The notes under the pieces were generated by a model that saw only the letters and a list, made by a program, of their open reading frames with translations, had not been told where the DNA came from and made no database searches. A stretch of DNA of 64,000 nt, from NCBI GenBank assembly GCA_958298945.1, contig OY282610.1:63485088-63549087 (forward strand), in the 5' to 3' direction. Each line of letters begins with the position of its first letter. Within the stretch, counting starts at the first letter, position 1. This document shows, one piece after another, positions 1,566 to 61,083 of this stretch. Made by a program: the position numbers and the translations under genes. This DNA is from Atherix ibis (taxonomy: Eukaryota; Arthropoda; Insecta; Diptera; Athericidae).

Positions 1566-2363
1566 ATGAAGATGGGCTGTCTAATAATAAAGCTCATGGA
1601 ATTCGTTGGTCCAAAACACAACGTGCATAAGGAGATCAAACAAATGGTAGCTAACATACAAACTGTTTTTGATAGACTTGGAGTGGAATTACAAACCGTT
1701 TCTAATGAAACGCAAACCACTCCGACTGTACAGAAAAGCTGGGCGCAGGTGAGCGGAACACCAGATAATGCGCAAAGGTTATTATTACCTAATAACCAAC
1801 TTCGGAAGGTAAAACAAGCACAGAGGCGCATAAACACCGTGCAAATGACGCCCCCAAAAACCGACCGTATGGGAGAGGAAACCAGCAAGAACAATACCCG
1901 GAGGGAGGATATACCTCCACAACCAACTTCTGATCCGGAGCGTGATCGGCAGAAACAGTCAGGAAGGACTGCAGGTGTAGTTTCTGACGGACAACAATGG
2001 GAGCAAGCTAGAGGGAGAAAGAAGAAGAAAAAGAAACCCCCGGCAAAAGCTCGAAGGAAACCACTACCGCCGAACGCATTAGCATTGAAAGACATCGGAG
2101 AGAAAGTCAAAAAAATCAGACGGACGGCAGGAGGCAATCTGTTGATTATATTTGGGAAAACAGAAGAGAAGGAGATGGAGACCTACCGGGCGACCATTAG
2201 GGAGACACTCAAGGAAAAAGCGACAGTAGAGATGAGGATTCCGGAGTCGGAAATAGAAGTCAGGGAACTGGACGAATGGGCAACCAAAGAAGAGGTAGTT
2301 AAACTACTAAAATATCACATCCCAGACCTGAAGGACCTCACCACCGATGATATACAACCTTGA
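1566..2363 (+). pseudogene. R1-clade ORF1 (Gag-like RNA-binding protein), 3'-deleted
   Basis: An open frame of 265 codons. Members of this family coat the element RNA. The N-terminal third is polar and helix-prone (KEIKQMVANIQ near residue 22). The middle is basic, with a lysine run (GRKKKKKK) near residue 150 that resembles a nuclear-localisation signal. The C-terminal part has the R1-type block EVRELDEWATKEEVVKLL near residue 232. The usual run of CCHC zinc knuckles that closes R1 ORF1 is absent: the frame stops just past the block and reading passes straight into endonuclease sequence at 2362. So the ORF1 end and the ORF2 start were removed together by one deletion. Confidence 0.75.
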
Positions 2364-2981
2364 CACCCAACCATGGGTCTCAGACAGCACAAAAAAGGCA
2401 GCAATGTGGGCATGCGGTAGACTGCCTTTCGAACAGCTACCAACTAATCCCCCCCCCCCCCCTTGATAGGAGAGGTCCTGTATAGTTGCTATGCTCCACC
2501 GAGTGCTCCGATTGACATGTTCGAGGACTTCCTGGACACTCTTGCAGAGGACGTGAGAAAACATGACCCGGTCGTAATCGCCGGAGACTTCAATGCTTGG
2601 TCCATTGAATGGGGCAGCCGTGAGACGGAGAAAAGAGGTGAAGCACTGCAAGAGGCTTTCTCGACACTAAACCTCACTCTCATGAATGAAGGAACTGCGA
2701 GCACCTACCGCAAAGGCGCCGCGAAATCCATTATCGATCTGACGTTCATTAGCAGAATCCTAACAACGGCCGAGCATCAGTCCACTGGTGGAACCCGACC
2801 ATCGCCCTACACCATCGAGCATGCCTTAAGGCAAGAAGGCAACACCAGCGCGCTCGTAAGCGAGACAGGGCCTCGACAGAGGAACTCAGACGGACCTACG
2901 AAGAGGAGAAGGCGTCTTTTCAGATTGTTTGAAGGAACTCTGCGCGGAAGTGGACCGGAACCCGTGGGGCAGACCGTATAA
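2362..2981 (+). pseudogene. R1-clade ORF2, endonuclease domain (partial)
   Basis: This is the apurinic-type endonuclease that nicks the target. Visible blocks: WVSDSTKKAAMWACG from about 2377, then after a poly-C tract VLYSCYAPPSAPIDMFEDFL, AGDFNAWSIEWGS (the catalytic GDFNAW block, near 2580) and SIIDLTFIS near 2730. The N-terminal catalytic part (roughly 100 residues in relatives) is missing. After SRIL the frame shifts; the linker continues in another frame with RRTYEEEKASF and NPWGRPYKTVMHRI, the latter typical of the R1 clade. The poly-C run at 2449-2462 interrupts the frame. Confidence 0.8.
2449..2462. repeat. Poly-C tract (14 C)
   Basis: A run of 14 C inside the former endonuclease frame, flanked by coding remnants on both sides. 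It is probably a slippage expansion that helped break the frame. Its length may be unreliable in the assembly. Confidence 0.9.
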
Positions 2982-3046
2982 GACGGTCATGCATAGGATT
3001 AAAAGCCTACCCGCAACAAAACGAACTCACAAGGGCCTTCACTAGA

Positions 3047-3892
3047 TTGCAGAATGGCAAGGCACCAGGACCAAGCGGCATACTCAACATCGCACTGAAG
3101 AGTACAATTACCGCCAGGCCAGACATGTTCATAAGCATGTACGACGCCTGCCTGCGGCAAGGCGTATTTCGGACTCGATGGAAGCAACAAAGATTGGTTC
3201 TTATCCCAAAAGGAAAGAAACTATCGGACGAACCAGCTCCTATCGTCCACTCTGCATGCTGGATTCGGACGGGAAGAACTTGGAGCGAAAAGTGGCCAAC
3301 AGATTGGAGCATTACATCGATGCTCAACTTTCCGAATTCCAATTCGGATTCAGGAAGGGAAGATCCACCATCGACGCGCTGGAACTCGTCACGAACATCG
3401 CAATGGAAGCCATCTCAGGAAAGAAATGGAAAGGCGCTTCCAAAAATTATTGTCTCATTGTCACCCTGGACATCAAGAATGCGCTAACTCGGCCCGCTGG
3501 GACCGAGTCTTGGAGGCTCTTGAGAACATGGGGGGGCCTACTACCTTCGGAGGATGGTCAGATCATACTTCAGTGACCGACTACTATACTACGAGACGCA
3601 GGATGGACCAGCGGAGTATAGGGTCACGGGAGGGGCTACTCAGGGCTCCGTCCTGAGGCCACTCTTGTGGAACGTCATGTACGACGGCCTACTCCATCTG
3701 GAATTACCGCCGAAAACAACACTCGTGGCTTTCGCGGACGACGTAGCGGTTGTCCTTGTAGCCAAACACCTGGAGGAACTGAAAACCGCATTCTCCACCA
3801 CCATCCGGAGGATAAGACAGTGGATGACATCGGCAGACCTGTCTTTGGCGGAAAATAAGACCGAGGATGTCGTGATCGCCTACTCACCATAA
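3047..3892 (+). pseudogene. R1-clade ORF2, reverse transcriptase fingers and palm
   Basis: Blocks in order across three frames: GKAPGPSG at about 3057, then the fingers with RLVLIPKGKK; SYRPLCMLDSDGKNLE; QFGFRKGRSTIDAL at about 3340; VTLDIKNA (motif A, catalytic Asp) at about 3463; ATQGSVLRPLLWN (motif B) at about 3635; and FADD (motif C, catalytic Asp pair) at 3731-3742. Frame changes occur near 3225, 3490 and 3560. The frame ends in a TAA within the loop of the hairpin described at 3865-3913. The catalytic residues survive, so decay is by frameshift rather than active-site loss. Confidence 0.85.
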
Positions 3893-3913
3893 GAGTAGGC
3901 GATCACGACATCC
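3865..3913. repeat. Perfect 21-bp inverted repeat, 7-nt loop
   Basis: Arms 3865-3885 and 3893-3913 are exact reverse complements around the loop accataa. The right arm reads as native element sequence (VGDHDIQS, leading into RYLGVVLDARL). The left arm stands where relatives have a different, longer block after ENKTE. The left arm therefore looks like an inverted copy of the right arm that replaced native codons. Confidence 0.9.
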
Positions 3914-4820
3914 AGTCGCTACCCTAGATCCGGTATCTAGGAGTGGTCTTGGATGCCAGACTCAACTACAAGGAGCATATCTCCAGCGTCAGCAGAAAGG
4001 CATCAGCAGAACAGGGTGCGCTTTCGCGGATAATGCCCAATATCGGAGACCCCAGGCAAATCCGAAGGCGACTACTGGCAACTGTAGTTACCTCCGTCCT
4101 GCTATACGGAGCATCAGTGTGGGCGAAATCGCTAGAGTTAACAATATACCGCAAGACAATGTCATCAGTCCAGCGGCTCTCAGCGATCAGAGTTGCGTCA
4201 GCATACCGAACGGTATCACACGATGTGGTCAACGTCGTGGCATCATGCCCACCCATCGACATCCTGGCAGGAGAGCGTGAACGCCAACATCGTAGGAAGA
4301 AGGAAAAGCGGCGAAAGCTCCTCTGTGAAGAGGAGAGACCCGAGAGTCTTCGCCTCTGGCAAGAGAGATGGGACCACTCGACGAAGGGTCGGTGGACTCA
4401 TCGGCTGATCCCAGATGTCACCAAATGGGTCACTCGCGTGCACGGGGAGGTCGGGTATTACACAACCCAACTCTTGACTGGGCATGGATGCTTTCCGGCA
4501 TACTTGCACAGATTCAAGAGAACTGACTCCCCAAACTGTCATCACTACCGCGATGTGATCGAAGAAGCAGAACACGTGTTCTTCCAATGCCCTTCTACGA
4601 GGGAATACGGGCAGATCTGGAGAAAAATCTGGACCGTTCCATCAGTCCAGAAAACATAGTGGAGTGCATGCTGAAGAGCCAATCGGCTTGGAACAGAGTT
4701 GCAGAGTACGCGGAATCTTTAATCAAGGTAAGAACGCCCCGGCGAAGTAGTATTTACAAAGAGTGCCGCCGGGGAACCATCATTCCGGGAGCAAGAGTAG
4801 AGGTACAGGTTAGGTTTTAG
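3914..4820 (+). pseudogene. R1-clade ORF2, thumb and C-terminal zinc-knuckle region
   Basis: The frame begins with a stop at the SLP*IRYLG block and continues as YLGVVLDARLNYKEH, VTSVLLYGASVWAKSL and RTVSHDVV to ILAGERERQ, all typical of R1-clade reverse transcriptases after the palm. The C-terminal knuckle is visible as C-HH-Y...H-VFFQ-C near 4534-4592: the second cysteine is replaced by tyrosine. A frameshift near 4605 moves the last block (ISPENIVECMLKSQSAWNRV) into another frame, which ends at 4820. Confidence 0.82.
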
Positions 4821-16414: not shown

Positions 16415-16845
16415 TGTTACGACATAACATGGATCTGGCGGGTTCTAGAAAATTCTAGAGAAACGATTCCAGAAAGTTCCGAAATATTCTAGAAGCACAT
16501 CGGAGTAGTAGATAAACAAGCGCTGCTCGCCAGCAAAGTCACGCAGAAAAGTGACTTATGAACGGCTGGTTAAAGTCACGTCTTAATAGAGAGAATGAGG
16601 AATGAATTCAGGAAGTGTAAACGAGAAACACTAATTAAGTGATCGGAGAATTAGGTTAGATCGTAGAAATACAGTGTGAATGGAAATACATCGAAAATAT
16701 CCAACTAGAATTTGACGTCCTAAACAAACAAATGCGTGTAATATATATTTTTTTAAATATTTCACCAAAATGTCAAATAGAGAAAATCCTAAATACACAA
16801 AAACGTATTTTACTCTATAAATTGAATCTACGTAAGATCGTAACA
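16415..16845 (+). repeat. 5' LTR of Gypsy-type element
   Basis: Begins TGTTAC and ends GTAACA, the inverted 6-mers expected at LTR ends, and is followed after three bases by the primer-binding site. It aligns with 19089-19291 (3' LTR start) and with the solo LTR at 53825-54221, sharing the end motif tgttacgac, the ttctagaa array, gctgctc-ccagc and aagtgtaaa-gagaaac. It carries heat-shock-type pentamers near its 5' side; the TATA box seen in the 3' LTR is degraded here. Confidence 0.88.
16443..16494 (+). promoter_or_regulatory. Heat-shock-element array in 5' LTR
   Basis: TTC/GAA pentamers at 16443, 16448, 16453 and, in a second phased run, 16467, 16472, 16477, 16487 and 16492; units at 16458 and 16482 are mutated (GAG, AAA). 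Heat-shock factor binds three or more alternating nGAAn units spaced 5 bp apart, which this matches. Activity is inferred, not shown. Confidence 0.65.
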
Positions 16846-16848
16846 TTT

Positions 16849-16865
16849 TGGTGTCAGAAGTGGGA
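16849..16865 (+). other. Primer-binding site, tRNA-Leu
   Basis: TGGTGTCAGAAGTGGGA is complementary to the 3' end of a tRNA-Leu (acceptor CCA plus TCCCACTTCTGACA). Position three bases after the LTR end fits a minus-strand priming site. Confidence 0.85.
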
Positions 16866-16927
16866 TAAAGTGAAATATTTTTTTCCTTCCAACAAGGAAA
16901 ACAGAAGCTGGAGAAGATGAACGTACA

Positions 16928-18094: not shown

Positions 18095-18830
18095 TGGATA
18101 CATACGTGTTGCGACTTTTCCACTAAAGCATTTCTGGACGACATCTTGGAGTGAAGAACTGTCTTAAAAATTTTGTGCAGCAAGTGCAAGAGCCGCGCAT
18201 CTGTAAATGTGCCATAGACGAGAAGCAGGGATGCGATGAAACTTTACAATATGAAACTTTACAATAGCGCTGGACGTACCACGACCTTTTCCTACAACAG
18301 AAAGCAGAATACGGTATACACTCGTAGTGCTTGACTACTTGACAAAATGACCAGAAGCGTTTGCAATATCGAATCAGGAAGCAATGACATTAGCGGAGAA
18401 GTGTTCTGCCGATTTGGACTTGTTGCAGAAATTCACAGTGATCAAGGCAGAAATTTAATGTGCCGACTATTCCAGGAAATGCGATAGCTTATGGGAATTC
18501 ACAAAACTCGGATAACTCCATATCATCCTCAATCGAACGGAATGATAGAACGATTCAATCAAACGCTGGAACAGCATTTGGATAAATTGGTTGATCGGCA
18601 TCAAAGCAACTGGAACCAATATATATGCCTGTTCTTTCTCTTGTAGAGAATAGCGGTATAAGTATCTCAGTCATACTGGCAAGTGCGAACTTTGGAAGAA
18701 AACTACGACTGCCAGCAGATCTACTTACTGGAACTCCCCCAGAAACATCAAATAATATGGCAGAGTATGCACTTGATTTGAGAGGGAATATGATTGGCAT
18801 TCATTCCCCGGTTTGACATACCGGACTATG
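18095..18830 (+). pseudogene. Integrase of Gypsy-type element
   Basis: Integrase inserts the cDNA. The N-terminal HHCC zinc part is seen as HHLGVKNCLKNF and KCKSRASVN in different frames (18130-18210). The catalytic core starts VLDYLTK*PEAFAI with the first Asp at 18333-18335. The second Asp is in HSDQGRN (18440-18442) and the Glu in NGMIERFNQTLEQ (18548-18550), exactly 35 residues later in one frame, so the D-35-E spacing is preserved. The rest follows with DRHQSNWNQY and, in another frame, NFGRKLRLPADLL. There are at least three frameshifts and several stops. A 15-bp tandem duplication (atgaaactttacaat) lies at 18236-18265. Confidence 0.82.
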
Positions 18831-19116
18831 GGCTAGTGAGAGGATAAAGACTCGTTACGATCGCAGTGGAAAAACTGTGGAATTCGAGGAGGGGTCTTTG
18901 GTTTGGCTGTACAACCCCACGCGTCGTACAGGATAGTCACCAAAATTTCAGGTAATTTTTGTTTGATCACCAAACATACTGCATTAAGAAAAGCCAGCAA
19001 AAAACACTGAATATTGTGCACATCGACTGCATAGCCCGTTATTACGGTTCGAATGATGCTCGAAACGAGCATTTTTTGAAAGCCGGAGTGTTACGACGTA
19101 ACATGTCGCTGGCGTG

Positions 19117-19204
19117 TTCTAGAAGATTCTAGAAAAGCGATTCTAGAAGGTTCCCTGGTGTGTCTCTGGTGTGTTCTAGAAAATATCTCTGGTGTGTTCT
19201 AGAA
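19117..19204 (+). promoter_or_regulatory. Heat-shock-element array in 3' LTR
   Basis: A perfect four-unit element TTCTAGAAGATTCTAGAA at 19117-19134, then TTCTAGAAGGTTC at 19141-19153, then TTCTAGAA at 19174 and 19197: eleven pentamers in 88 bp. Part of the array is a local duplication of tctggtgtgttctagaa. The array ends 15 bp before a TATA box, the geometry of a heat-inducible promoter. Confidence 0.7.
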
Positions 19205-19218
19205 GCACTCCAGAGCAG

Positions 19219-19226
19219 TATAAATA
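19219..19226 (+). promoter_or_regulatory. TATA box of the LTR promoter
   Basis: tataaata, downstream of the heat-shock-type array. The equivalent position reads atatgaata in the solo LTR and agataaac in the 5' LTR. Confidence 0.65.
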
Positions 19227-19317
19227 CGAGCGCGCTGCTCACCAGCGAATGAGTTTAATCAAAATAGTGATTGAGGAACAAGAAGTTAAAGTCGGAAATA
19301 ATACATGCTTTTTTTCC

Positions 19318-20545
19318 TTTTCGGTTTTTCATGTTTTACTTTTGATAGATCACATGTGACGTGTGTCAAAGTCAAAAGAGCGCAGTTAGAATTATAATTT
19401 TACCATGGGAAGACTAACATTCAAACAACGCTTACAAATTATTGAATTTTATTATCAAACAAAATGTGTTTCGCGCACTTTGACCATTTTATGGTCATCA
19501 TAATCGACCTACTGAGCAAGTAATTGAAGCCATAAAGATAAAATTTTTCAGCAATTTTACGCTATTGGACATCAAACCACCAACCCGTGTGCGCAGAGTG
19601 CTGCTTCAGTGTTCGTGAAAATCGCGATTTGCCCATTCGTCGCCGTTCACAGCAATTGGGATTGTGTAACTCGACTATGTGAAAGATTTTACGCAAGGAT
19701 CTTGGTCTGAAAACATATCAAATGCAGCTTGCGCAAGAACTGAAACTAAACGACCTACCAATGCGTCGAATTTTCGGTGAGTGGGCTTCAGAACAACTTG
19801 AGGAAAATCGGTTTTTTTAACAAAAAATTGCGTTCAGCGACGAAGCTTACTTCTGATTGAATGGATATGTGAATAAGATAAATTATCGTATTTGGTCTGA
19901 TAAACAACCACAGGCAAAATAAGATTTTGCAATTGCAACCAGAAAAGTGCACTGTTTGGTGGAATCATCGGTCCGTATTTCTTTAAAGATGACACAGGCC
20001 ACAACGTTACCGTCAATGGCACCCGTTATCGCTCGATGATTTCAAACTTTTTTTGGCCTAAATGCAAAAACTTTATCTGGTCGACATGAGGTTTCAACAA
20101 AATGATGCTACATGCCACACAGCAACGTGAAACAATGGACATATTGAGAGATGAGTTTGGTGAGCTATTTATCTCACGTTTCGGACCGGTGAGTTGGCCG
20201 CTTAGATCGTGGGATTTGACACATCTAGAATATTTTTTATATAGCTATGTGAAGTCACTCGACTATGCCGATAAATCAGCGTCACTTGCAGCCTTGGAAG
20301 ACAACATTACACGCGTTATTAGCAAGATACCAGCCGAGATACCCGAACAAGTAGTTCAAAATAGACCTCTCGCATTGGATCACTCAAAACATAGTCGTGG
20401 CCAACATTTACATGAAATAATCTTTAAAAAGTAAATGGCACGCATTGATTTATCAATTCAAATGAAAAATTGTACAAACTAGTTTTAAATGCTAATAACT
20501 TTCGTATTTTTCAACTTTAAAAAAAAAGTCGATTGTCTAAATCGG
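19318..20545 (+). mobile_element. Rosa-like Tc1/mariner element, inactive
   Basis: The left end tcggtttttcat resembles the terminal repeat of the 52.8-kb copy (tcgggtttttcaat). A long transposase pseudogene follows. The right end is not clear. It abuts the truncated 3' LTR of the Gypsy-type element. Confidence 0.6.
19405..20434 (+). pseudogene. Rosa-like (DD41D-type) transposase, broken
   Basis: The start MGRLTFKQRLQIIEFYYQ is a helix-turn-helix opening typical of this group. Then VRENRDLPIRRRSQQLGL, LRKDLGLKTYQMQL, LNDLPMRRIFGEWA and FSDEAYF*LNGYVNK (first catalytic Asp, near 19840, followed by a TGA). The block that should read QQDGATCH reads QQNDATCH, so the second acidic residue is Asn, and the final TPLD block is THLE. 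The end is ISRFGPVSWPLRSWDLT...SRGQHLHEIIFKK. Several frameshifts and stops occur. Nearly the whole gene length (about 340 codons) is represented, more than in the other two copies. Confidence 0.8.
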
Positions 20546-23159: not shown

Positions 23160-26100
23160 AAACATTTTCTTTTCTATAATTTTAAATTAATATTTTCCAT
23201 TCAAAAACTTTTATTTGCTTCATGAAATCGGAGGCTCCTCTAGCATAGATAGTCGAGAAAAAAATCTGTAATTAATTTTCTGACCATTCGATTATTCATA
23301 AAATTAGACCAGAATAGATTTTAATATAGAAAGTTGGCTGATCTTTAAAAATGCGCACAATAATATAGGATAGCATGGACCTCAGGATAAATGTCCCAAT
23401 ATTGACCAAGAAAAATTTTTGCGGACGATTGAAAAGGGTCAATAACAAAAAAAAACCTCTCTTTGTTAAAGATAGGTGATACAAATTGGACTCCATGCTA
23501 GATCCTTGGATAGATTATACTAGAGATTACGATGGTAAATATTTTTAATAACCGAGCAATAAAAGCTTACATCGAATTGAATACTACTTTTTATTTTTTA
23601 TTATAAAAAGAAGATCATATTTCAGAGTAGAATGTCAGATATTTTGATTTATAGCAGCAAACTTTGATTTTAAGTAACAAGAGGTACTCTACACCTGAAT
23701 CAATTTTTGAACTTTGCATCGAAAGCTAGAATACCAAAGCATTTATACTTTTTAACTAAAAATATCCTCTTAACTGTAAAGAATTTATGAGCAGTCCGAA
23801 TTATGGTCCCAGTTATTATAAGATTCCATTTTAGATCAGAACTTCAAATATTGAATAATAAAATCAGCGTGCGATATTTTCTCTTTTGAATCTCGAAAAC
23901 TCTATGGAGGATCGCGATCTACTTTGCTAAATCTAATAGCACGCAGAACAATGGTCAGGACTTCAAACATTTCTGAACATTGAACTCTAAAATTATCACA
24001 CCAACTTGGGAAGTCCAAGGCACCAATTCCAATTCATAATTACAGAAGATAGTATCAGTCTCAGAACGAACACTATCAAACACTGATCGTAAGTCGAAAC
24101 GTTACTACTTGTGAATACTGCATTAGCTTCATTATTTAATTTAGATCGTTTTTTTGCACTAAAATATATAATAAAACTTATGTAAAAGGAATTTTTTTTT
24201 TGTGTAGAAAAATTTTCTTATTACATAAATTTATAAGTTTATAAATTTATGTTTATAAACTTTAAAGATTAGTACCATCTAAAATAAAATGGTATGTATT
24301 TTCTGTGCTCTTTAAATGAATTCAAAAATTTACACTCCTAAATGAATTAATCACCTTTTATAAAGAAAAGAAAAAAAATCTTTTATACATAAGGTACATG
24401 ACTGAAAATATGTCAAAATAGCAACAAAATACAAACAGACAAAAATTATTTTAAAAAAAACGACAGAAAAAGAAAAAAAAAGCAACAAATTTAAAAGTGA
24501 TATTAGAAGGGAGGGAACCTATTGAAAATAAATTCGTCAAGAAATGAAGCGTTTGAATGAGCAAGATGCAAAAAGATCCGATGCTTAACGAGTACTCATC
24601 CAAAAACAAGCAGAAACGATGAAACGAATTTGGTGAATTTTAATAATAACAAAAATAGTAAGAGTAAGAGTAAAAGTGAAAGTGATAGTTGAACTAATGC
24701 TATAAGCAGCCGAAAAAGAGAAGAAGCAGAAGAAAAAACTCTGTTAGTTTTCTCAACTCTTTCTCTATGGTTTTTTTTGGGTTTTTTGCCGACATTTGAT
24801 TTGAAATTTTTTTCTCTCAGATGACTTTCATATTAAACAGTTTATGTAAGCGTCACATTGAACTTTATTTTATTCATAAGTGAATTTTATACTTTCCACG
24901 ATGAGTGGTTACGGACTTAACTAAGAATTATTATTTTTAACTCTGTTTTTCTGTCTGTATTGTAAATTATTATATTTCTCTTAAACATTTGTTGGTGTTT
25001 GGTAATTAGTTAACAGTGGAATATGAAAAGATGCAAATTGGAAGGGAGAAGCGTAAACGGTGTGAGGCGTGCAAACAACACATTGAAAGTGTAACCAGCA
25101 GAACCGATGTTGGTGGTTGTTGGTGGTGGTGGTCGTTGCTGCTTAATTTTTCTTTTTTGTGTTTTTTTTTGTTAATGTTTCCTTTGGCTATTTTTATTTC
25201 TCTTTATATTTCTATTTTCCATTTGTTTAAGTACTTTTTCCTTTCGTTTCAATTATTTAAATATATTTTTTTTTAATTTTATCTTTCGTTTTTCTCTTTT
25301 GTGCATTCGATTTTTTATTCAAACGGTTTCAATAGTTTTATTTTTACCTCAACTTATATCATTGGCGGTCATTACGAATGTTAGAAATTTATTTATTTTT
25401 CTCTCGAACACCTTTTTCCGCTGTTGCGCGTACTCTTTTTTTTGTCAAATAAAGAAAAGTGTTTTGATTTTGATTATTGTTTGTCTTTATTATCATAATA
25501 ATTATCGCTTGTTATATGATTCTTTTGTTATAATGAATTACTTTTTAAATTGTTATTTTATTTATTTTGTAATTTCACCTTTATTTTCATTGAAAATTAT
25601 TTGTTTTCATTTTTGTTCTTGAAGTTTTTGAATTATTTGCAAAAAAAAATCTTTTTTATATAGAGAGAGGGAAAATTTTAGAAAAATAAAAACCGGTTTG
25701 AAATCAAAACACATGCAAAAAAAATTAAGAAAAACAAATTTGGGGAAAAAAGAAAATTTTTGGAGACAAGCGAAATTTAATAAAACAAACAAATTTTGAG
25801 AAAAAAAGAAAATGTTGAGAGAAAAAATAGACAAAACAAAGAAAAAAAAGGAAAATACTCAATTAGCTTTAAAATTTGTAGGGTCTTAAACTTAAAACAC
25901 TATGAAACAAAAAAATTAAGAAAAAAATATTTTGAGAAAAAAGAAAATTTTTGGAGACAAGCGAAATTTTGTAAAAAAAACAAATTTTGAGAAACAAAAG
26001 AAAATGTTGAGAGAAAAAAAAGACAAAACAAAGCTTTAAAATTTGTAGGGTCTTAAACTAAAAAATATTTTTGTTTATATTTGTAGGGTCATCAACTTAA

Positions 26101-53824: not shown

Positions 53825-54221
53825 TGTTACGACGTAATATAGCTCTGGCGTGTTCTATAACATTCTAGAAGAACGGTTCCAGAAAGTTCTATTCCGGAAT
53901 ATTCTAGAAGCACGCCAGAGCAATATGAATACGAGTACTACTCATCAGCGAGTGATTTTAGTCTGAAAGCGATTTGGGAACGACTGGTTGAATTCGGCTA
54001 TTGGTAGAGCGAACGACGATTAAATTCGGGAAGTGTAAAAGAGAAACGCTCTTTAAGTTATTGATAAATTAATTAAATTAGATTCCAGTGTGAACTGGAA
54101 ATACAGCGGAAAGATTTAATCACGATTCGAGGATCCTAAACAAACATATATAACATAGTTAAATAAAGAAAATCCTAAATAAACTAAAACATTCTTTTAC
54201 TTTATTATTATTAAAGTAACT
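53825..54221 (+). repeat. Solo LTR of the 16.4-kb Gypsy-type family
   Basis: Begins TGTTACGACGTAA and ends near GTAAC at 54220, colinear with the 5' LTR at 16415-16845, with no internal sequence on either side. Solo LTRs arise by recombination between the two LTRs of a full element. No target duplication is evident. Confidence 0.82.
53853..53909 (+). promoter_or_regulatory. Heat-shock-element array in solo LTR
   Basis: Seven pentamers in strict 5-bp phase at 53877, 53882, 53887, 53892, 53897, 53902 and 53907 (TTC GAA TTC TTC GAA TTC GAA), including the perfect four-unit TTCCGGAATATTCTAGAA at 53892-53909, plus TTCTAGAA at 53863. Compared with the 5' LTR, one 5-bp unit has been added without breaking phase. 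Confidence 0.7.
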
Positions 54222-60185: not shown

Positions 60186-61083
60186 CGAGGTCTGTTCAGA
60201 AACTACCACGAATTTTGAATTTCCGCGGGTTACGTATATTCGATTTTCGATTTATTGTTGCGTTATATTGGTACTCATGTATCTCACTTATGTCGACAAG
60301 TTCGGCCATTTTGAATGTTCAGTTAATTTTTGACAGCTGCTTTGCTTGCACGTGTTTTGGCTCGTTTTCGATTTTAACCCATTCCAAAAAATGGATCGAA
60401 GAATCTTTTTCGGGAACAAGAGAAAAGTGACAGGGGGCCAGATCTGGGGAATACGGTGGCTACGGCATTATTAGTTTGTTGTTTTTGGCCAAAAATTCGC
60501 GCACAAGCAACGCTACGTGAGCAGGGGCGTTATCATGATGCAAAAGCCAATTTTTGTTCTTCCAGAAATCCGCGCGTTTCTGGTGGATTGCTTCGCGCAA
60601 CTTGCGCATAACTTGCAAGTAATATTCCTTATTGACCGTTCTACCCTATGGCAAGAACTCATGATGCACCACGCCCCTGCAATCGAAGAAATTTGTAAGC
60701 AAAACCTTCACATTCGACTGAACCTGGCGAGCTTATTTTGGCCTTGGTTCGTGCGGCAGCTTCCATTGGGATGATTAAGCTTTGGTTTCCACGTCATAAC
60801 CATAAACCCATGATTCGTCACCACTTATAACCCTCTGGATCAAATTTGGGTCGAATGTCAATGCGATGCTGTTTTTGGTCGAAAATGGGCAAAAATCGAA
60901 GACAAGTCAAAACACGTGCAAGCAAAGCAGCTGTCAAAATTTAACTGTACATTCAAAATGGCCGAACTTGTCGGCATAAGTGAGAGACATGAGTACCAAC
61001 ATAACGCCACAAGAAAAATCGAAAATCAAATATACGTAACCCGCGAAAATTCAAAATTCGTGATACTTTTTGAACAGACATCG
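60186..61083 (-). mobile_element. Mariner-type element with about 175-bp inverted ends
   Basis: The left (60186-60360) and right (60907-61083) ends are inverted copies of each other, roughly 85-90% alike by eye, starting cgaggtctgttca and cgatgtctgttca. TA follows the right end (61084-61085); TG stands at the left. Classic mariners have inverted repeats near 30 bp, so these are very long. The interior is a minus-strand transposase core only. Confidence 0.82.
60405..60860 (-). pseudogene. Mariner-type (DD34D) transposase, catalytic core only
   Basis: Read on the minus strand: ESWVYGYDVETKA, SNVKVLLTNFFDCRGVVHHEF, TVNKEYYLQVMRKLREAI, NWLLHHDNAPAHVALLVREF and PPYSPDLAPCHFS. HHDNAPAH holds the second catalytic Asp, and exactly 34 residues later the third position is His instead of Asp. 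A stop replaces Gln before PPYSP, and there are two frameshift-free stops upstream. The helix-turn-helix half and the C-terminal AFQNC region (the parts retained at 22.6 kb) are absent, so the two fragments are complementary deletions of one superfamily, though not necessarily one family. Confidence 0.8.

Follow-up and report, generated by a model that had tools for sequence, protein, structure and literature searches.

A 64,000-nucleotide stretch of the genome of the fly Atherix ibis (GenBank assembly GCA_958298945.1, contig OY282610.1, positions 63,485,088 to 63,549,087 of the forward strand; henceforth termed the window) contains three related copies of a retrotransposon long terminal repeat (LTR). 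Each copy carries a dense array of TTC/GAA units shortly upstream of an intact or degenerate TATA box. Alternating units of this kind in a 5-bp phase make up heat-shock elements (HSEs), the binding sites of heat-shock factor (HSF). Here, we describe the arrays at this locus and in related LTRs across the 670-Mb assembly, a family whose promoter was probably driven by HSF.

Results

The LTR copy at 19089..19300, termed the 19k copy, is the cut-short 3' end of a shortened element. It begins with TGTTACGACGTAACA after an integrase-bearing stretch, has an approximate right border with foreign sequence beyond, and can be aligned to the two other copies within the window. Its HSE array (19117..19204) comprises 11 TTC/GAA units in 88 bp, which start at 19117, 19122, 19127, 19132, 19141, 19146, 19151, 19174, 19179, 19197 and 19202; the motif TTCTAGAAGATTCTAGAA occupies 19117-19134. 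A TATAAATA box follows at 19219..19226, separated by 14 nt from the final GAA. The 16k copy (16415..16845, 431 bp), the 5'-side LTR of the shortened element, has ends of the TG...CA type (TGTTACGA at the start, TCGTAACA at the end), and its array at 16443..16494 is followed by a degenerate TATA box at 16509. The array of the 53k copy (LTR at 53825..54215, right border approximate; array at 53853..53909) ends 14 nt ahead of a TATGAATA TATA box (53924..53931). All of these features, as well as the internal ones described below, lie on the forward strand.

We scored phased pairs, defined as TTCnnGAA or GAAnnTTC, in the U3 region of each copy (taken as 19089-19218 for the 19k copy) and compared them with 5000 dinucleotide shuffles of the same region. 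The 19k copy contains 7 phased pairs against 0.10 expected, the 16k copy 5 against 0.13, and the 53k copy 6 against 0.07; in each case, 0 of the 5000 shuffles reached the observed value. Because bare triplet counts are less extreme, being reached by 3 (19k), 18 (16k) and 0 (53k) of the 5000 shuffles, phasing is the stronger signal than triplet number. These data confirm the dense array reported in a first-pass annotation of this DNA; the short gap to the TATA box holds as well, although its length is 14 nt rather than the 15 bp given there. Judged by eye, the TTCTAGAA blocks at 19174 and 19197, the final two in the 19k copy, lie within near-copies of the LTR-head sequence that are 23 bp apart, and this copy is therefore locally rearranged and atypical of the family.

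Further family members were sought in the assembly with a 22-nt pattern that covers the TATA box and the start of the R region and is itself free of HSEs. Allowing up to 3 mismatches, this anchor matched the genome at 400 places and its reversed control at 0. The family sample consists of 100 of these 400 anchored matches (0-2 mismatches), from which two near-duplicates were removed to give 98 copies. In the 150 nt ahead of their TATA boxes, phased pairs number 295 in total, where 15.4 are expected from shuffling and none of 300 shuffles exceeded 28; single copies have up to 17 TTC/GAA triplets there. A run of three or more units is present in 63 copies (0.38 expected) and one of four or more in 31 (0.01 expected), and the phased score exceeds the 99th percentile of single-base shuffles in 81 of the 98. 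The last TTCnnGAA ends exactly 14 nt before the TATA box in 34 copies. A lack of pentamer enrichment over shuffled sequence had been named beforehand as evidence against heat-shock arrays in this family; counted copy by copy, the outcome was the opposite. An earlier count on 32 copies gave 152 pairs where 6.0 were expected (no more than 14 in any of 1000 shuffles) and runs of at least three units in 25 of 32. It was set aside as biased, because its BLAST query held the array and twin copies were included.

Across the 98 copies, opposite units most often lie 5 bp apart (295) and units of equal orientation 10 bp apart (225), which is the spacing of HSEs. The units might alternatively be bound by a different factor, for instance as STAT-like TTCnnnGAA sites, or be no more than a palindromic repeat, and TTCTAGAA is indeed palindromic, the commonest block, and locally duplicated in the 19k copy. 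We regard this reading as highly improbable, since the 5-bp phase is kept across different spacers: TTC and GAA are separated by TA, CA, TG and CG in 83, 46, 15 and 12 cases, and GAA and TTC by GA, TG, AG and TA in 28, 27, 22 and 15. STAT-like spacing is also rare, with 22 opposite units at 6 bp (a three-base spacer) against the 295 at 5 bp. The family therefore places phased HSEs close upstream of a TATA box, in the manner of heat-shock protein (hsp) promoters, and clusters nGAAn units in 5-bp phase within the LTR, in the manner of the plant element ONSEN.

The LTR head could be located in 71 of the 98 copies. Among these, 18 have a short U3, 12 of them with TATGAATA, and 51 a long U3, 40 of them with TATAAATA; two copies are intermediate. 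Perfect pairs average 1.2 in the short form and 4.0 in the long form. In copies inspected as sequence, the short form retains the head-proximal block and is without the second array. The two subclasses are compatible with growth of the array by duplication, or with its loss.

Host hsp70 genes offer a reference for this layout. The A. ibis hsp70 cluster consists of seven frames of 639 amino acids within a single stretch of one contig, every frame being matched without interruption, and the promoters of five of the seven genes were compared with the LTRs. The hsp70 protein itself is in keeping with a fly host: among the 120 matches listed for its C-terminus, most are from flies (Contarinia at 76% and Hermetia at 72%), although the best E-value belongs to a protein of a mussel at 60%. 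All five have TTC/GAA units upstream of TATAAATA, with the last GAA 11 nt before it. Hosts and LTRs thus share a TTC/GAA cluster near TATAAATA and a short linker (11 nt in hsp70, typically 14 nt in the LTR), whereas the hsp70 arrays are less perfect in phase. Phased scores are 10-11 for the host promoters; among the LTR copies the median is 9.5 and the highest score 19, and 44 of the 98 reach the lowest of the five host scores. As far as layout alone can tell, independent gain of the array and capture of an hsp promoter by the LTR are equally likely.

Perfect four-unit HSEs occur at 479 places in the genome, compared with 56 for the reversed pattern. Their origin was checked for the first 40 of 50 distinct places listed, all on one contig. 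Outside the site itself, 31 of these 40 match the LTR family (E 1e-3 or better) and 9 do not; a careful count by reading gives 26, with five matches being short or weak (L138, L139, L155, L160 and L161). When a TATAWAW box was required 8-20 nt downstream of the four-unit HSE, 74 matches were listed (two of them overlapping each other), whereas the reversed control gave 3. The family linker is present in 62 of the 74 (1.3 for shuffled linkers), and 54 have exactly 14 nt to the TATA box; none of the seven host hsp70 promoters is among the 74. The strict HSE-plus-TATA layout in this genome is therefore mostly that of the LTR family, and raw material for heat-responsive promoters exists.

Three of the four-unit HSE places outside the family (L149, L156 and L173) share a TTCTGGAAACTTCTTGAA core in TTC/GAA-rich surroundings and perhaps represent a second HSE-bearing repeat. 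About 4.6 kb before the start of the window, at C6:63480449, there is a further family promoter. At C2:118939548-118939952, three family TATA anchors (L040, L094 and L095) follow each other about 192 bp apart in one orientation and resemble a small tandem array of LTR promoters.

To which class the element belongs can be read from its internal region. The internal part between the 16k and 19k LTRs is short and broken and carries an integrase core fragment at 18488..18643 (Pfam rve_3, E 2.1e-7; score 31 bits, cut-off 26.5). A different copy of the family, L027, has an Integrase_p58_C match (E 1.4e-9) that ends 82 nt upstream of the TATA anchor, so that integrase directly precedes the 3' LTR in both cases. 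Membership in the ONSEN family itself, a copia family, was rejected because integrase rather than reverse transcriptase precedes the 3' LTR. The order of integrase before the 3' LTR also occurs in BEL/Pao elements. Ten frames from two internal stretches, and the other frames tried, yielded no reverse transcriptase; these frames cover part of the internal region only. Ty3/gypsy thus fits and copia does not, and with no reverse transcriptase recovered from these frames, BEL/Pao is a conceivable alternative. The Gypsy-type label of the first-pass annotation is accordingly supported by the integrase fragments, in the form Ty3/gypsy-like. One of the two internal stretches also carries a DNA-transposon fragment, with HTH_26 over and DDE_3 below the cut-off. 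A possible primer-binding site that starts with TGG was read from the sequence at 16849..16866, 3 nt past the 16k LTR; it may resemble the 3' end of a leucine transfer RNA. The 16k and 19k LTRs are likely part of one insertion, although their array layouts differ.

Several other repeats lie in the window. Past the cut 19k LTR, broken sequence at 19370-20434 looks by eye like a mariner-type transposase, and the frame at 20102-20431 within it has no Pfam match. The sequence at 1566-4659 is a broken non-LTR retrotransposon in which domains of an endonuclease and a reverse transcriptase are recognizable. An inverted repeat at 60251-61016 has 133-nt arms that are 91% complementary and 500 nt apart, and an A-rich direct repeat at 25718-26021 consists of 95-nt copies 191 bp apart (89% identity).

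Discussion

The arrays are phased at 5 bp, keep a preferred spacing to the TATA box, are present family-wide, and resemble host hsp70 promoters in layout. These features are likely explained by an old Ty3/gypsy-like LTR family with an HSF-driven, hsp-like U3 promoter. In such a promoter, an HSE near the LTR head would be joined, in the long subclass, by a second phased array, whose typical distance to TATAAATA is 14 nt. Under heat or another proteotoxic stress, HSF trimers would be released, and their cooperative binding to the array would start transcription of the element. The element would thereby ride the host stress response, as ONSEN does in plants. HSF binding, heat induction and consequent transposition are what we infer from a well-studied motif.

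The trigger need not have been heat. A role of HSF in oogenesis is described in one study (PMC10745035) and opens a second reading that is compatible with an HSF-driven promoter: the array may have served germline or developmental expression, with HSF acting in oogenesis and early larval development and new copies becoming heritable without heat. Heat and germline triggers look the same at the level of sequence. The many units of the long subclass and its TATA layout, which is like that of inducible hsp70, would suggest strong inducible use, and we consider the germline reading unlikely.

A number of observations weigh against an HSF-driven promoter throughout the family. No run of three units is present in 35 of the 98 anchored copies, and 17 do not rise above the 99th percentile of single-base shuffles. 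Control stretches from the same copies are mildly above shuffles in two of three cases (29 phased pairs against 11.7, maximum 21; 29 against 11.5, maximum 25), the third giving 18 against 12.1 (maximum 22); there is thus a mild excess of phased pairs outside U3, far below the excess within it. In the host hsp70 promoters, the best phased run ends 31-41 nt before the TATA box. Conservation of the HSE letters is also modest once bases are matched (58 of 98 copies): 0.911 against 0.850 for A/T (p 0.002) and 0.761 against 0.735 for C/G (p 0.11). Lastly, the copies are diverged, with a median nearest-neighbor identity of 77.6% (based on the 71 of 100 copies that could be aligned over more than 200 bases), and no open frame longer than 218 amino acids lies within about 1.5 kb of the LTR matches at 60 loci, flanks that cover part of the element.

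The conservation result has a history. A first test on 30 copies used a BLAST query that contained the array, and its choice of copies favors HSEs. In the anchored copies, of which 57 of 97 were compared (the rest being short or poorly aligned), core columns, at 0.842, were better conserved than phase spacers, at 0.771, but decay in these copies is faster at C and G than at A and T. With the base-matched excess being modest, selection on the HSE letters was set aside.

The age of the copies bears on whether the array still works. Outside near-identical groups, the next best neighbor is 81% identical. Within them, L018 and L019 agree at 99.9% over 2377 bp and L022 and L023 at 100% over 2047 bp, flanks included, and in L021/L029 and L114/L115/L116 the match likewise continues far outside the LTR. 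Near-identical copies were therefore rejected as young insertions, as identity extends into the flanks; they look like segmental duplicates. Because the copies are old and near-identical pairs share flanks, present activity is doubtful, and the copies examined appear long dead. Heat switching is consequently more certain for the ancestor than for today's copies. This leads to the view that the family is a relic, in which the array worked in an ancestor and the copies of today are decayed, silenced, and deaf to heat and HSF. Divergence, shared flanks and the lack of long frames speak for it, and for the past it is compatible with the HSF-driven promoter preferred here. Yet 44 of the 98 copies keep arrays as good as those of host hsp70 promoters, so that HSF could still bind them, and the evidence for decay comes from 100 of 400 anchored matches. 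We take the relic view to be a serious possibility, if somewhat short of an even chance.

A more far-reaching version of the HSF-driven promoter is conceivable, though we hold it to be rather doubtful. The family may have acquired an hsp-like promoter, enlarged its array, and, as it spread, come to supply more of the strong HSF sites in this genome than any other source. Much of the HSF released by heat would then settle on LTR remnants, some of which might act as promoters of nearby genes or as HSF sinks.

Elements with heat-shock promoters in their terminal repeats have precedents outside insects. Zuker reportedly found, in 1984, a heat-shock promoter inside the terminal repeat of DIRS-1 from Dictyostelium. 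DIRS-1 is a tyrosine-recombinase element with inverted terminal repeats. Its heat-shock promoter in a terminal repeat parallels the probable one of the fly family, but it differs in the inversion of its repeats and in its slime mould host.

In ONSEN (ATCOPIA78), HSFA2 binds the LTR and heat activates the element (PMC3907296); its strong HSE arose by duplication of a proto-element (PMC5059998). ONSEN and other COPIA families of the Brassicaceae resemble the fly LTR in having HSF-type nTTCnnGAAn elements within the LTR, and the short and long fly subclasses might suggest the same route of duplication. In contrast to the fly family, which is Ty3/gypsy-like, decayed, and known from sequence alone, ONSEN is a plant copia element with experimental proof.

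The ONSEN study names Drosophila copia as the closest example; copia is heat-responsive but, according to that study, has a promoter without the nGAAn copies needed for high affinity (PMC3907296). A 2023 study predicted single HSF matches in the copia and gypsy LTRs of D. melanogaster (PMC10745035); these are likewise fly LTR retrotransposons with predicted HSF sites, but weak ones. Helitrons have spread HSEs through Caenorhabditis genomes, and HSF-1 binding was measured (PMC6927752). They differ from the fly family in being DNA transposons with measured binding; what the two have in common is that HSEs are carried through the genome of an animal by a transposon family. LTRs with strong multi-unit heat-shock promoters are thus documented in plants, while weak HSF sites are reported from insects (PMC3907296, PMC10745035). 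No insect LTR with a dense HSE array appeared in the accessible portions of the literature searched, a search that left out most subscription journals and gives no proof of absence.

Set beside these systems, the fly family stands out for its host and superfamily, for how densely its sites are packed, and for how large a share of the HSE-plus-TATA layouts in the genome it accounts for. If HSF binds these LTRs, they would represent a case of a retrotransposon linked to the stress response of an animal, and one from which most of the strict HSE-plus-TATA layouts listed for this fly (62 of 74) derive; whether transposons can supply a heat-shock network in an insect would then become a testable question.
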